Positions 2,438 through 34,604 of a DNA stretch of 39,571 nt are shown one piece after another. Where the stretch lies: positions 1-39,571 of the forward strand of contig NZ_JAPQFJ010000026.1 in the NCBI RefSeq assembly GCF_026738875.1, in the 5' to 3' direction. The position numbers were made by a program, and so were the translations under genes. The stretch's first letter is position 1, and every line of letters begins with the position of its first letter. The notes under the pieces are model-generated. The model was given only the letters and a program-made list of their open reading frames with translations. It was not told where the DNA came from and made no database searches. Source of the stretch: Clostridium brassicae (GTDB lineage Bacteria > Bacillota > Clostridia > Clostridiales > Clostridiaceae).

Positions 2438-2533
2438 TACCTTTTTTAAAAAATTTATATTTAATTTTGTGATTTAGAGTAAATAAGATATCACTTTATA
2501 TAATTTTTTATGATATAGTCTAAAAAATATAGT

Positions 2534-3433
2534 TTATACTTTTAGAGGTGATTTTATCTTAGTACATTTAGAACATTCATCACAGAATTTAACCCTATCT
2601 TCAAAAACTTTTCGTATAGTTTCTATAATCTCTTTATTATTGCAATTTTCTACATGATGTAGCACTATGCTTTTAGGAGAATAAGTTATAAGTCCACTAA
2701 TTATTAAATCTTCAGTACTCACATTTCCTGTATACTTTGAATCCATTATATCTGTAAGCATTTCTTTCATTATATCTTTGTTTTTCTTATCGGTTATTAT
2801 ATATTCACCATTTTCTTTAATAATTATATTAACTTCTTCTATCTTACTTTCTTGAACCTCAACAAAATATTTAAGAAGTTTTATAAATTCATCGTATTCT
2901 TTTTCTACCATATGTTTTTCAGCAACTTTATTAACTATGTTTTCTAAGTCTCCTGTTAATTTTTTCATTCTAAAAGTAATAAACCCCTCTATATTTATTT
3001 CATCATTCTCTTTTATACATTCTTGTATTTTTTCAATAATATCATTTTTTTTATTTAAACAATATATTTTATCCTCATCTAGTTCCCTATCTTCGTCGTT
3101 TAAAATTCTGTAACTTTTATTTGCTATTTCTTTCATATCCTCATACTTTAAGAAAAAATACGTTTCATTCAAAAAATTTTGTATTTCCTCACTACAGTAT
3201 TCTTCAATAACTATTTTATATAATATATTCGCTAGATAAAAACTAAATTTATTTACTAATTTTTCATTATAATCATTATCATCACAAAATACTTTTATAA
3301 AATGAATACCATTATTTATAGATTCGGCTCTCCCTAGCGAAACATCTTTTGCTTCAAAAAATTCTATAACTTTATTGAGTTCATCTATTATCCTATCTTC
3401 ATTATCTTTATAAACAATAGTATGTAATAGCAT
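2534..3433 (-). CDS. ytxC: Putative sporulation protein YtxC
   Basis: A 299-residue acidic soluble protein that I recognise as the YtxC family. The family is conserved in endospore formers and usually lies beside thrS; its molecular role is not established. Seen: no signal peptide or membrane segment, mixed charged helices, and a C-terminal cysteine cluster (FCDECSKCTK) near the end that could bind metal. The frame is open up to a TTG at 3451, but that lies in the ribosome site. The ATG at 3431-3433 has AAGGAG about eight bases upstream and begins MLLHTIVYKD. It ends about 100 bp before the thrS promoter, so the two genes appear to be separate transcription units. The family call rests on size, context and C-terminus. 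Confidence 0.8.
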   Translation of the reverse strand: MLLHTIVYKDNEDRIIDELNKVIEFFEAKDVSLGRAESINNGIHFIKVFCDDNDYNEKLVNKFSFYLANILYKIVIEEYCSEEIQNFLNETYFFLKYEDMKEIANKSYRILNDEDRELDEDKIYCLNKKNDIIEKIQECIKENDEINIEGFITFRMKKLTGDLENIVNKVAEKHMVEKEYDEFIKLLKYFVEVQESKIEEVNIIIKENGEYIITDKKNKDIMKEMLTDIMDSKYTGNVSTEDLIISGLITYSPKSIVLHHVENCNNKEIIETIRKVFEDRVKFCDECSKCTKIKSPLKV

Positions 3434-3732
3434 AGTATTCACTCCTTTCAAAAGTTAGTATGTGTTTAAAATACATGTATATACTAAAATTATTTTAATA
3501 AGCTTGTATTTTTTTACCTATATCTATTCATTACTTTTAACACCTACTATAACAACCACTTTTTTATTAACTAAGAACAAATTTACAGTAATTAGTACGC
3601 CTAACCCAAAAGGCTGTTGTAGACATAATTTTTATATACTATAATTTTACTTATATATTAAACATTAGTGGTTGATTCTTAAATTATGTGACTTGATTAC
3701 CTAATAAGAAAATTAAAACTGGAGTGATATTT

Positions 3733-4437
3733 TTGAAAAAATTAATTATTGACTACAGAACATCGGATGAAGAAAAATTATCAATTTTAAATTTAGGTTA
3801 TGAATATATCGAATGTCCACCTTGTTCAAAAGTATATGAAGCTATATGTGGTCATCCAGATATCCTATTACATATTATTGACAATAAAAATATACTAGTT
3901 CATAAAGATGTACAATCAGACTTTATTAAAACATTAAAGGATAGAGGCATTAACGTAAGTTCCTCTTCAAGTTCGCTAAAGTCCTCTTATCCACTAGACA
4001 TTATTCTTAATGCAGTTAATACCTCAACCTTTTTTATGCATTATTTAAAATATACAGATTCCAAATTATTAAACAGTATTAAAGATGAAAAAAAATTGAT
4101 AAATATTAAACAAGGATATACAAAATGCTCCACAGCAATAGTATCTTCTTCTGCTTTTATAACAAGTGATAAAGGTATAGCAAAAGCTCTTTATAACGAA
4201 AATATGGATGTACTTCTGCTTCCTCCCGGTGATATAGAACTTCCTGGACTTAATTATGGTTTTATCGGCGGATGCTGCGGATTAATTGAAGATAACATTT
4301 TAGCTTTTTTTGGAAACCTTGAATGTTATACCTATGGAAAAGAAGTACTTACTTTTTTGAAAAAGAACAAGGTTGAACCTTATTTCTTAAAAAAAGGAAG
4401 GCTTATAGATAGAGGGAGTTTGTTCGTAGTAGAATAA
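3733..4437 (+). CDS. GME/pentein-fold protein of the DUF6873 type
   Basis: A 234-residue soluble protein. I recognise it as the clostridial DUF6873 family, assigned to the GME (pentein) fold shared with arginine deiminases and amidinotransferases; the substrate is unknown. Seen: a CPPC near residue 29, GHPDI near 40, and a glycine/cysteine motif GGCCGLI near 177-183 that could carry a catalytic cysteine. TTG at 3733 is the preferred start (MKKLIIDYR), with GGAG eight bases upstream. An upstream GTG at 3724 overlaps that ribosome site. It is transcribed convergently with the DUF421 gene, and the stop codon lies in the shared hairpin. The enzymatic role is inference from fold only. Confidence 0.7.
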   Translation: MKKLIIDYRTSDEEKLSILNLGYEYIECPPCSKVYEAICGHPDILLHIIDNKNILVHKDVQSDFIKTLKDRGINVSSSSSSLKSSYPLDIILNAVNTSTFFMHYLKYTDSKLLNSIKDEKKLINIKQGYTKCSTAIVSSSAFITSDKGIAKALYNENMDVLLLPPGDIELPGLNYGFIGGCCGLIEDNILAFFGNLECYTYGKEVLTFLKKNKVEPYFLKKGRLIDRGSLFVVE

Positions 4438-30399: not shown

Positions 30400-30633
30400 A
30401 TGGCTTTAGGAGAATCTGGCAGTGGTAGAACTCAAGTAGTACCTGACTGCCATAAAGTATTAGATAAAATGAAATACGAAATAGCAGAGGAACTTAATTT
30501 AGGGGTTCATGAAGGTTCTGAAGATTATTGGGGAGAAGTTTCATCTAAAAACTGCGGTAAAGTTGGAGGCACAATGCTTAAAAGACTAGTTAATTTAGCT
30601 GAACAAGAGCTGGTTAATGGAAAAAAAGCTTAA
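30400..30633 (+). CDS. Small acid-soluble spore protein, alpha/beta type
   Basis: A 77-residue alpha/beta SASP that coats spore DNA in an A-like form and is digested at germination. Seen: MKYEIAEELNL near 24-34 with the germination-protease site (after the first E of EIA), and SSKNCGKVGGTMLKRLV near 49-65, the DNA-contact block. It is longer at its N-terminus and has a cysteine in the second block, so is not one of the major near-identical SASPs. ATG 30400 has AAGGAGG eight bases upstream. It is single, divergent from pdaB, with a terminator right after. Confidence 0.93.
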   Translation: MALGESGSGRTQVVPDCHKVLDKMKYEIAEELNLGVHEGSEDYWGEVSSKNCGKVGGTMLKRLVNLAEQELVNGKKA

Positions 30634-32117: not shown

Positions 32118-32351
32118 AGTCTCACCCCCCTACACTATAATATGTGACAATCATATATTTTGAGAGTCATTATTTAATATTTTTTCAAATCTTATTCTCA
32201 TAATTTATAAATTTCAACTTAATAGAAATACTTTTTCCTTCTCCTAGCTACTTTGTACTAATCTTTAATACATCCCTAGTATTTAGTCTTGAATAGTGAT
32301 CCTAAATCATTTATAATTTTTATTATATTTTATAAAAAAGGAGTGGTTTTT

Positions 32352-32597
32352 GTGCATATTTACAAACCTACAGGAGTTTGTTCAAGAGAAATAAGCTTCG
32401 ATCTAGAAAATGGGAAAATTAAAAATGTTTCTTTTGTAGGTGGCTGTTCTGGAAATTTACAAGGAATATCTAGTCTTGTAGAAAATATGGATATTAACGA
32501 GGTTATAAAAAAGCTAAAAGGTATCAAATGTGGAAATAAATCTACCTCTTGTCCAGACCAATTGTCTAAAGCTATAGAGGCATTAAAAAACAAGTAA
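32352..32597 (+). CDS. TSCPD-domain protein (TIGR03905-like)
   Basis: An 81-residue protein with the TSCPD domain otherwise found at the C-terminus of B12-dependent ribonucleotide reductases. Seen: TGVCSREI near 7-14, FVGGCSGNLQGIS near 28-40, IKCGNKSTSCPDQL near 60-73. This gives four conserved cysteines likely to bind metal or act in redox. The stand-alone family is common in anaerobes and its function is unknown. GTG 32352 has AAGGAG about eight bases upstream; the frame is open to an ATG at 32289 without a ribosome site, so the longer form is unlikely. Confidence 0.88.
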   Translation: MHIYKPTGVCSREISFDLENGKIKNVSFVGGCSGNLQGISSLVENMDINEVIKKLKGIKCGNKSTSCPDQLSKAIEALKNK

Positions 32598-32706
32598 ATC
32601 CTTAAACATATTTTAAAAAGAGTTTTAGTTATAATTTCTAAAATTCTTTTTTTATATTTATATATAAAAATTGAAAACACTTTTTAAACTTATGCATATA
32701 CTATTA

Positions 32707-32735
32707 TTGACAGGACAAGCGGTTGTCCTTATCAA
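32707..32735 (+). promoter_or_regulatory. Promoter with an operator-like dyad in its spacer
   Basis: TTGACA (32707-32712), a 17-base spacer, TATCAA (32730-32735). The spacer is almost entirely occupied by the perfect inverted repeat AGGACAA-GCGG-TTGTCCT (32712-32729), extended imperfectly by TTGA/TCAA on the outside. It lies 26 bp upstream of the cysteine-rich gene's start codon. It could instead be an RNA hairpin if transcription starts further upstream. Confidence 0.55.
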
Positions 32736-32760
32736 CTTCCTTATGAAGGGAGGCTAGACT

Positions 32761-32928
32761 ATGAATAACTCATGCAACTGCAACTGTAACTGTAATAGAC
32801 GAGATGATCTTCTAATACTAATCGTCTTAATCATAATATTCTGCTGCTGCTGTGGTGGAGGTTTCTTAGCTTCTGGAATAGGTTCTTCTTGTTGCTTACC
32901 TTGTTGCTGTTTACCTTGCTGCTGCTAG
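32761..32928 (+). CDS. Cysteine-rich membrane microprotein (55 residues)
   Basis: I do not recognise this gene. Translation gives 55 residues with 16 cysteines. The N-terminal part has CNCNCNC (residues 5-11), followed by charged NRRDD. Next come a hydrophobic stretch LLILIVLIIIF (17-27) that could be a membrane helix, CCCC (28-31), GGG, a short linker, and a C-terminus of CCLPCCCLPCCC (44-55). ATG 32761 has a strong GGGAGG seven bases upstream and a promoter 26 bp ahead, so expression is credible. Runs of TGC codons make it look repetitive. Metal binding, disulfide cross-linking (for example in a spore layer) or membrane assembly are possibilities, all inference. A terminator lies 240 bp downstream. 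Confidence 0.75.
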   Translation: MNNSCNCNCNCNRRDDLLILIVLIIIFCCCCGGGFLASGIGSSCCLPCCCLPCCC

Positions 32929-33162
32929 TATATAACTTTTAGTTCATATATTAAAAATTTTTAATCTTTATATAAGACTTTTATCTAAAACTTTATCTAA
33001 AATTATCTTTAATTTTCTTAAGCTATGTTTTAGATTATTAACTGCATTGCGATAAGAACCTTACATTTCACAAAATATAGCACAAGATGAAGATAATTAT
33101 AAAAAATTATAAGTTTTTTACTATATATATTAATATTTCAACAAAATTCTTTGAGAAAATTC

Positions 33163-33193
33163 AGCGGTATATTTTATAATATACCGCTTTTTT
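33163..33193 (+). terminator. Terminator downstream of the cysteine-rich gene
   Basis: Perfect 11-bp arms AGCGGTATATT (33163-33173) and AATATACCGCT (33178-33188), then a T run. The 230 bp between the cysteine-rich stop codon and this hairpin contain no ORF. Confidence 0.82.
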
Positions 33194-33202
33194 AGATGAA
33201 AT

Positions 33203-33368
33203 ATAAACAGAGTTCTAAGCTTTAGAGAGAGTTTTTATTCCCTCTAAAGCTTATTAACAGAATTCTTAGGACTTTTACTCCTTAGAAGCCGTTATCCTTT
33301 AAGAGAAATCGTTATCCATGGTAATTTTAAAGAAGATGGGAGTATTAGAATGGTTATACATCAAATAA
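33203..33368 (+). repeat. Dispersed structured repeat, copy D
   Basis: The longest copy. Plus strand: ATAAACAGAG, a hairpin with AAGCTTTAGAG / CTCTAAAGCTT arms, a second hairpin TTCTTAGGA / TCCTTAGAA, two GTTATCC segments, then GATGGGAGTATTAGAATGG. The 3' end is degenerate. It lies upstream of and co-directional with the AI-2E-family gene. Confidence 0.7.
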
Positions 33369-33488
33369 ATTATTAATTTATTCTTTACATAGTATTAAAA
33401 TTTTGTATATATGTCAAAAATACTAGAATAATAAAAAAATTGGTGATATAATCAAGCTAGTTATTTCATAGAAATGGAGGATTATGTC

Positions 33489-34604
33489 TTGTTCAAAAAC
33501 AAAAAAGTCCCTTACTTAAATTTAATACCTATTTTAATAATTTCTTTTCTACTTTTTAAAGTTATAGATAATGTAGAATTTCTAGCAGAAGGTTTTGGAA
33601 TGTTACTCTCTATTTTAACACCTTTCTTTTGGGCTTTTGGGATAGCTTATCTTTTGAATCCTCTTATGATTCACCTAGAAAAAAGATTTAAGTTAAAAAG
33701 AGGAATAAGCCTTCTAATTGTCTATGCTATAGTAATTGGGTTTATAACATTATCAGTTACAATAATTTCACCTACAATCGCAAGTAATATTGGTGACTTA
33801 GCAAACAATATTCCTGAATATGCTATTAAAACAGAATCTTGGATTAGATCAAATATTCAAAAATTAAATTTAAATAATAATAAGGATATTATTTCATGGA
33901 TAAATAATCTTTTAAGTACTTCTTCTGGCAAATTAACAGAAATATTAAATACAGGAGTTAATACAATTTTCAACAAAGCCGTTAGCTTTACTTCTTCATT
34001 TTTAAAAATGGTTTTTGGATTTATTATATCTGTATACATACTAAATGACAAAGAATTATTTAAAAATACAATTAAAAGATTTTTGTATGCTACTTTTAAT
34101 ACAAAATCAGTTGACAATTTTTTAGTTTTTACAGATGAAGTAAATAGATTATTTTCTCAATACATAATTGGTAAATTTATAGACTCATTAATAATAGGAA
34201 TTTTATGTGCCATAGGCTTAACTATTTTAAAAGCACCTTATGCATTACTTATAAGTATTATAGTGGGTATAACTAATATGATACCTTATTTTGGACCATT
34301 TATTGGAATGATACCTGCAGTAATAATAACTGTCTTCTTCAGTCCAATAAAAGCTCTAGAAGTATTAATATTTATAATCATCTTACAACAATTTGATGGT
34401 TGGTTCTTAGGTCCAAAAATACTTGGTGATAAAGTTGGTTTAAACCCTTTCTTAATAATTTTAGCCATCACTATTGGTGGAGGAATTTCTGGAGTATTAG
34501 GAATGTTCTTAGGAGTTCCTATAATGGCAGTTATTAAAACTTTTTTACAAAGATATATGACTAAAAAATTAGAAGAAAAAAATATTCAAGAGAGTACAAA
34601 ATAA
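33489..34604 (+). CDS. AI-2E-family membrane transporter
   Basis: A 371-residue membrane protein of the AI-2E/PerM family (PF01594 type), with about seven or eight helices. Seen: paired N-terminal helices (LIPILIISFLLFKVID and a second near 45-65), a central soluble region about 100-160, and the family motif IIVGITNMIPYFGPFIGMIPA near 257-277. A late PKILGDKVGLNPFLIILAITIGG segment is followed by GVLGMFLGVPIMAVIK. Members have been linked to autoinducer export or ion antiport, so the substrate is open. The TTG at 33489 has GGAGG eight bases upstream; the ATG at 33474 overlaps that site and is unlikely. Confidence 0.9.
   Translation: MFKNKKVPYLNLIPILIISFLLFKVIDNVEFLAEGFGMLLSILTPFFWAFGIAYLLNPLMIHLEKRFKLKRGISLLIVYAIVIGFITLSVTIISPTIASNIGDLANNIPEYAIKTESWIRSNIQKLNLNNNKDIISWINNLLSTSSGKLTEILNTGVNTIFNKAVSFTSSFLKMVFGFIISVYILNDKELFKNTIKRFLYATFNTKSVDNFLVFTDEVNRLFSQYIIGKFIDSLIIGILCAIGLTILKAPYALLISIIVGITNMIPYFGPFIGMIPAVIITVFFSPIKALEVLIFIIILQQFDGWFLGPKILGDKVGLNPFLIILAITIGGGISGVLGMFLGVPIMAVIKTFLQRYMTKKLEEKNIQESTK

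Follow-up and report, generated by a model that had tools for sequence, protein, structure and literature searches.

Cysteine-rich proteins that share no homology with one another form disulfide-linked spore layers (PMC7333573, PMC6101409; here and below, statements from the literature follow excerpts of the cited papers). CsxA of C. sporogenes and ExsY/CotY of Bacillus are mutually unrelated examples that build such layers (PMC7333573), and for CdeC and CdeM, cysteine-rich sporulation proteins of the C. difficile exosporium, disulfide cross-linking has been proposed, with cdeC depending on both sigma-K and SpoIIID (PMC6101409, PMC10681294). At the RNA level, 5′ hairpins stabilize B. subtilis mRNAs (PMC3997798), and a hairpin that occludes the ribosome-binding site (RBS) dampens translation of sigG in the same species (PMC5942855).

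The locus described here lies in a 39,571-nucleotide stretch of Clostridium brassicae DNA (the window) and resembles both groups in part. CdeC (405 residues, 9% cysteine) and CdeM (161 residues, 8.7%) are the larger proteins, whereas the predicted product here has 55 residues, 29% cysteine and a membrane-like helix, and is set apart from them by description and by family scans. CsxA and ExsY/CotY self-assemble into lattices; the 55-residue peptide, known here from its sequence, is likened to them by description. Its leader shares with the sigG leader and with 5′-stabilizing hairpins such as that of aprE a predicted hairpin at the RBS, or at or close to the 5′ end of the mRNA, but carries two predicted hairpins in tandem and precedes a different gene. 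In our best reading, the product would belong to an unnamed small family of membrane-anchored proteins whose functional kind, cysteine-rich sporulation proteins, is already known.

The cysteine-rich gene and its relatives

The features discussed below are as follows; genomes (G) and loci (L) carry numbers where they need to be told apart, G000 being the genome of the window.

32677–32703, forward strand: sigma-K-type promoter, with ACA at 32677–32679, a 15-base gap and CATATACTA at 32695–32703; found in 8/8 genus genomes.
32707–32735, forward strand: hairpin 1, at the predicted mRNA 5′ end and containing the dyad at 32712–32729; predicted in 8/8, weak in G002 and G007.
32736–32753, forward strand: hairpin 2, pairing the Shine–Dalgarno sequence AAGGGAGG; predicted in 8/8.
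32761–32928, forward strand: gene for a 55-residue, cysteine-rich, single-helix protein; synteny in 8/8, dN/dS 0.25, hydrophobic stretch.
33163–33193, forward strand: terminator-like hairpin AGCGGTATATT..AATATACCGCT (arms also given as GCGGTATATT..AATATACCGC) with a T run; after the open reading frame (ORF) in 8/8.

The ORF starts at an ATG at 32761, stops at 32926–32928 and encodes 16 cysteines. The Shine–Dalgarno sequence occupies 32746–32753, with seven bases between its end and the ATG. The start, ribosome-binding site, length and cysteine content given in the initial annotation were all re-found in the sequence. Six-frame translation of the window gives 104 ORFs of 40 residues or more, and the next-highest cysteine fraction among them is 6%, which argues that 29% is not a chance composition. 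The proposed membrane-like helix is likewise supported: residues L17–C31 have a mean hydropathy of 3.65, and each of the eight genus members has a hydrophobic stretch, with best 15-residue values of 3.1–3.7.

The closest relative of the downstream AI-2E transporter gene (33474–34604) was found in all eight genus genomes, and directly upstream of it there is in each case a short ORF with a poly-cysteine end (43–55 residues, 7–18 cysteines). All eight follow one plan, consisting of a short head with Asp (mostly Asp-Asp), the hydrophobic stretch, CC-x-C-G, a Gly-rich link, Pro and a Cys run; the common core is Asp-helix-CCxCG..P..CCC, in which CC-x-C is CCC (CCCG) in G002 and G007. The CNCNCNC head and doubled tail singled out earlier are present in the window, but the head occurs in no other genus genome (1/8) and the doubled CCLPCCCLP-type tail only in the window and G006 (2/8). 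These two are also the closest pair, with 90% protein identity. A hand-placed codon alignment of the pair has 5 synonymous changes over 32.8 sites and 5 nonsynonymous changes over 120.2, a dN/dS of 0.25 that rests on these ten changes.

Conservation of the frame in relatives had been named beforehand as the refuting test. On comparison, the ORF is kept in synteny in 8/8 genus genomes and every indel within it between the window and G006 is a multiple of three, which already contradicts its being a chance ORF or repeat expansion. The number of Cys codon runs does differ between close relatives, as an expansion would have it; however, the synteny, the dN/dS, the conservation of start, Shine–Dalgarno sequence and promoter, and the existence of a distant member in synteny in G097 make this explanation extremely improbable. 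Judged by these comparisons, the ORF is a real gene, one so short that annotation may overlook it.

Beyond the genus the gene is scarce. A first genome scan with a small-protein pattern matched 587 stretches, with no relative among them, perhaps because of low complexity, and the AI-2E neighbour was used in its place. This neighbour search found the ORF at 2 of 80 loci, one in C. ganghwense (L075, the same ORF as in G003) and one in C. aestuarii (L076, the same as in G001); L116 and L153 also passed the filter, with unrelated ORFs. Searches outside the genus covered 206 family genomes and 225 order genomes, 20 of the latter matching at E 0.001, and yielded two convincing members. The member in G097 is syntenic, with TSCPD on one side, a Mur-ligase-type folC-like gene on the other, and both CATATAATA and GGACAAGC upstream of it; that in G078 lies elsewhere, among different neighbours. 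They have 39 and 44 residues, respectively, counted from inner ATGs that we picked. This brings the total to ten members of 39–55 residues, each with one hydrophobic stretch.

Other weak matches are longer two-module proteins or 27–37-residue ORFs of uncertain relation. Six genomes of one genus, g21 (L060, L061, L062, L064, L068 and L070), hold ORFs of the latter length that start at ATG with a good Shine–Dalgarno sequence and have the plan Glu, about 12 hydrophobic residues, CCG. The two-module proteins of other Clostridiaceae (about 110 residues, tail NTNII; profile matches at E 2e-5 to 5e-4 in G118, G119, G122–G124 and G147) share the module Asn/Asp, hydrophobic stretch, CxCG, but differ in having two modules, a basic middle and no poly-cysteine tail, and the relation may be convergent. 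Proteins at seven loci (L010, L011, L012, L013, L016, L017 and L067) have about 110 residues, two hydrophobic/cysteine modules, a middle part that is basic or rich in His, and the NTNII tail. Three NTNII-tailed proteins and two similar ones matched no NCBIfam family, and several of the genes appear by eye to have a TATATAnTA-like stretch in common upstream. These proteins are possibly another unnamed sporulation family.

At TSCPD neighbourhoods in 29 other genera (40 loci, one per genome, taken from 172 genomes with TSCPD), none of the 40 had a short, cysteine-rich, hydrophobic ORF with a Shine–Dalgarno-like site by our own filter. The gene thus looks like a lineage-restricted insertion. At 21 of the 40 loci an opposite-strand ORF of 429–456 residues, folC-like by size and place, is found there. 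The genus has the cysteine-rich gene and the AI-2E gene inserted where other genera show TSCPD followed by the folC-like ORF, an arrangement also seen at L004, L041, L039, L040 and L053. Within the genus, G007 had no TSCPD at E 1e-15. In G004 a methylpurine-DNA glycosylase gene (PF02245) lies on the other strand, and G002 and G007 seem alike by eye.

The proposal that the protein has no named family was borne out: the ten members had no credible match in Pfam (best E 0.16), NCBIfam (best E 0.19) or PHROGs, where 2 of the 10 matched one unnamed PHROG, at best with E 0.0084. Additionally, no description appeared among the best matches listed from open-access literature on small cysteine-rich sporulation proteins, C. 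ganghwense and C. aestuarii. A phage origin was rejected, as a search of 50,697 phage records gave no matching DNA.

A sigma-K-type promoter

The arrangement ACA-N15/16-CATAnnnTA stands at the same place, just upstream, in 8/8 genus genomes and arises in 0–9 of 2,000 dinucleotide shuffles per sequence. In the published consensus for sigma-K the 5-base and 10-base elements are 15 ± 1 bp apart (PMC517825), and in C. difficile the −35 element is AC for sigma-K and ATA for sigma-E (PMC3789822). In the leaders, AC lies 16–17 bases before CATA in 8/8, and in G097 likewise at 17, whereas ATA at 11–20 bases before CATA occurs in none of the eight genus leaders (one stands at 10 in G001). A sigma-E promoter was rejected on this −35 element. 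The sigma-K gene itself is present in 8/8 genus genomes (TIGR02846 above cut-off). Because the eight genomes are related, conservation of the promoter does not amount to eight independent tests. Taken together, these observations indicate that the gene is probably under sigma-K control.

The initial annotation had instead placed the dyad in the spacer of a promoter formed by TTGACA (32707–32712) and TATCAA (32730–32735), 17 bp apart, and had proposed metal or redox control. This reading did not hold up. TATCAA agrees with TATAAT at 4 of 6 places, TTGAYA-N17-TATCAA is found in only 4/8 genus genomes (G000, G006, G003 and G004), and the conserved element lies upstream instead. Since the hexamers form the feet of hairpin 1, each is almost the reverse complement of the other, and a better −10 (TANNNT at 16–18 bases) occurs in 0/8 genus genomes, the window included. 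On these grounds a sigma-A promoter with the dyad in its spacer was rejected. A membrane-associated cysteine peptide responding to metals or redox state, transcribed from a sigma-A promoter and unrelated to sporulation, could draw on the 16 cysteines and on TTGACA being a perfect −35 hexamer, but the hexamer pair follows from the hairpin feet. Further, the seven neighbours scanned (TSCPD, AI-2E transporter, DUF4364, SASP, polysaccharide deacetylase, YNCE-like and Mur-ligase-type) include no known metal or thiol-stress gene, and nothing in the analysis points to such control. We regard this alternative as very improbable.

Two further elements lie nearby. A gene for an alpha/beta-type small acid-soluble spore protein (SASP; 30400–30633; PF00269, E 3.6e-20) is 2.1 kb upstream of the cysteine-rich gene, a weak context. 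A conserved stretch like TACTAGAA..TTGGTGATATAATC at 33420–33454, upstream of the AI-2E gene and found as a pattern in 7/8, is probably that gene's own promoter.

Leader hairpins and a possible SpoIIID site

The perfect dyad AGGACAA-GCGG-TTGTCCT reported at 32712–32729 was confirmed, and a genome-wide search found it as a single copy in 4.10 Mb. With the sigma-K-type promoter just upstream, the dyad would fall at the mRNA 5′ end; the foot of hairpin 1 stands 2–3 bases past CATAnnnTA in 8/8 genus leaders.

Several lines of evidence bear on hairpin 1. First, two of its pairs have two-sided compensatory changes (T-A to C-G and C-G to T-A), both through G001, in addition to G-U exchanges, which lends the hairpin modest support. 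Second, single-base shuffles reach an energy as low as that of hairpin 1 in 0–6 of 500 cases for five leaders, 29 of 500 for G097, and 119 and 129 of 500 for G002 and G007; for the whole leader, dinucleotide shuffles do so in 0–7 of 300 cases for six leaders and in 43 and 42 of 300 for G002 and G007, two leaders whose folding energies are thus unremarkable. When seven leaders were simply aligned with MAFFT, RNAalifold returned 12 pairs, one of them with a two-sided change, because the arms were out of register; stems were consequently compared sequence by sequence.

A covariance model (R1) was trained on four of the eight leaders, so that four of its eight strong matches are training sequences. 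It has one strong match per genome in 8/8, always at the cysteine-rich gene; the next-best match scores 28.4 bits (E 0.23), with 150 of 2,505–3,951 first-look candidates scored per genome. The exact leader pattern is present in 6 of the 206 family genomes, all within the genus and all at this gene. With one perfect copy of the dyad in the window's genome and one strong model match per genome, the dyad is unlikely to be the operator of a general regulon there. A known RNA family was rejected as well: across 32300–33500, Rfam returned nothing above the gathering score, and nothing overlapping the leader even at E 5.

Hairpin 2 fared less well. It is predicted to pair the Shine–Dalgarno sequence in 8/8, yet the pairing does not exceed that in shuffled-upstream controls (20–137 of 300 shuffles reach it), and sequestration by hairpin 2 was rejected. 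The terminator-like hairpin, by comparison with its relatives, is nearly unchanged across the genus, has a weak or absent T run in G002 and G007, and in G001 (C. aestuarii) has changed in both arms with pairing kept. It is the probable downstream end of the transcription unit.

An alternative account of the dyad is that it serves primarily as a DNA operator, for SpoIIID or another repressor, over the transcription start, the RNA hairpin being a by-product. SpoIIID of B. subtilis recognizes the consensus WWRRACARNY. The left arm of hairpin 1, GGACAAGC / AGGACAAGC, resembles such a site, with modest support. Across nine leaders the best match on either strand is 10/10 in five (for G000 and G006 this match is to the minus strand and falls in the right arm), 9/10 in three and 8/10 in G004; in G001 the 9/10 match is at another place and the left arm falls below 9/10. 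Shuffles reach 10/10 in 14–64 and 9/10 in 320–483 of 1,000, which tempers these matches. The left arm is kept as GGA[CT]AAGC in 7/8 genus leaders and in G097, whereas the right arm drifts, which speaks for an operator; however, the right arm retains a complementarity that a one-sided operator does not need, and G004 is without a SpoIIID-like match though a stem of at least 8 pairs is kept.

The spoIIID gene is present in 8/8 genus genomes (TIGR02844 above cut-off). Separately, the window's own genome, alone among the eight, has a second SpoIIID-like gene (G000:C23:175319-175555; 109.7 bits against a cut-off of 111.5). Published work places the sites of SpoIIID-repressed genes over RNA polymerase sites (PMC517825) and considers it possible that in C. 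difficile some late sigma-K genes are delayed by SpoIIID (PMC10681294). The C. difficile consensus, KRTAACARK (PMC5025042), is matched at 6–8 of 9 places in the leaders, as 125–997 of 1,000 shuffles are. We hold a primarily operator role to be possible, and lean somewhat against it.

A candidate spore-envelope peptide

The initial annotation had also offered, as its other guess, a spore-layer component, and this gains support from the sigma-K-type promoter and from the sigma-K and SpoIIID genes, each in 8/8. We favour, with confidence a little better than even, a late mother-cell, membrane-anchored, cysteine-rich spore-envelope protein. The greater length of CdeC and CdeM, and their cysteine content of about 9%, count against this reading. 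Whether its cysteines would act through disulfides we judge to be about evenly balanced.

SpoVM-like peptides are small morphogenetic proteins that act by localization or curvature, and a peptide of this type, with cysteines for lipid or metal contacts and not for cross-linking, would also fit one hydrophobic stretch in ten members of 39–55 residues behind a mother-cell-type promoter. Within the C terminus, however, conservation is highest in the poly-cysteine tail, a pointer to thiol chemistry, and no family match was found; we consider a morphogenetic role of this kind unlikely.

Under the favoured reading of a spore-envelope protein, the gene would be monocistronic and expressed in the mother cell late in sporulation, using sigma-K. 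Transcription would start upstream of the dyad, giving an mRNA that begins with hairpin 1 followed by the hairpin over the Shine–Dalgarno sequence. The 5′ hairpin would probably guard the transcript against decay from its 5′ end, and SpoIIID may also bind the overlapping GGACAAGC in DNA and set the timing. The 55-residue product would insert into a membrane by its one helix, probably the mother-cell-side membrane around the forespore, with cysteines probably disulfide-linked to one another or to coat proteins.

A bolder version, which we consider improbable, would give one stretch of about 29 bases a double use: in the DNA it would be a SpoIIID site that restrains a late sigma-K promoter, and in the transcript a 5′ hairpin that preserves the message in the dying mother cell. 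It would thereby control a membrane 'rivet' whose poly-cysteine tail ties the forespore outer membrane to the disulfide-linked coat. We know of no description of such a rivet as a spore-envelope part.

Cysteine-rich proteins build disulfide-linked spore layers, and the examples compared here, CdeC and CdeM, are larger than this peptide. If the favoured reading is true, a family of single-helix poly-cysteine peptides, 39–55 residues long and transcribed from a late mother-cell promoter, would hint at the way in which a membrane is fastened to the cross-linked coat. In the leader, the sharing of one sequence by a regulator site and an mRNA hairpin can also be put to the test.
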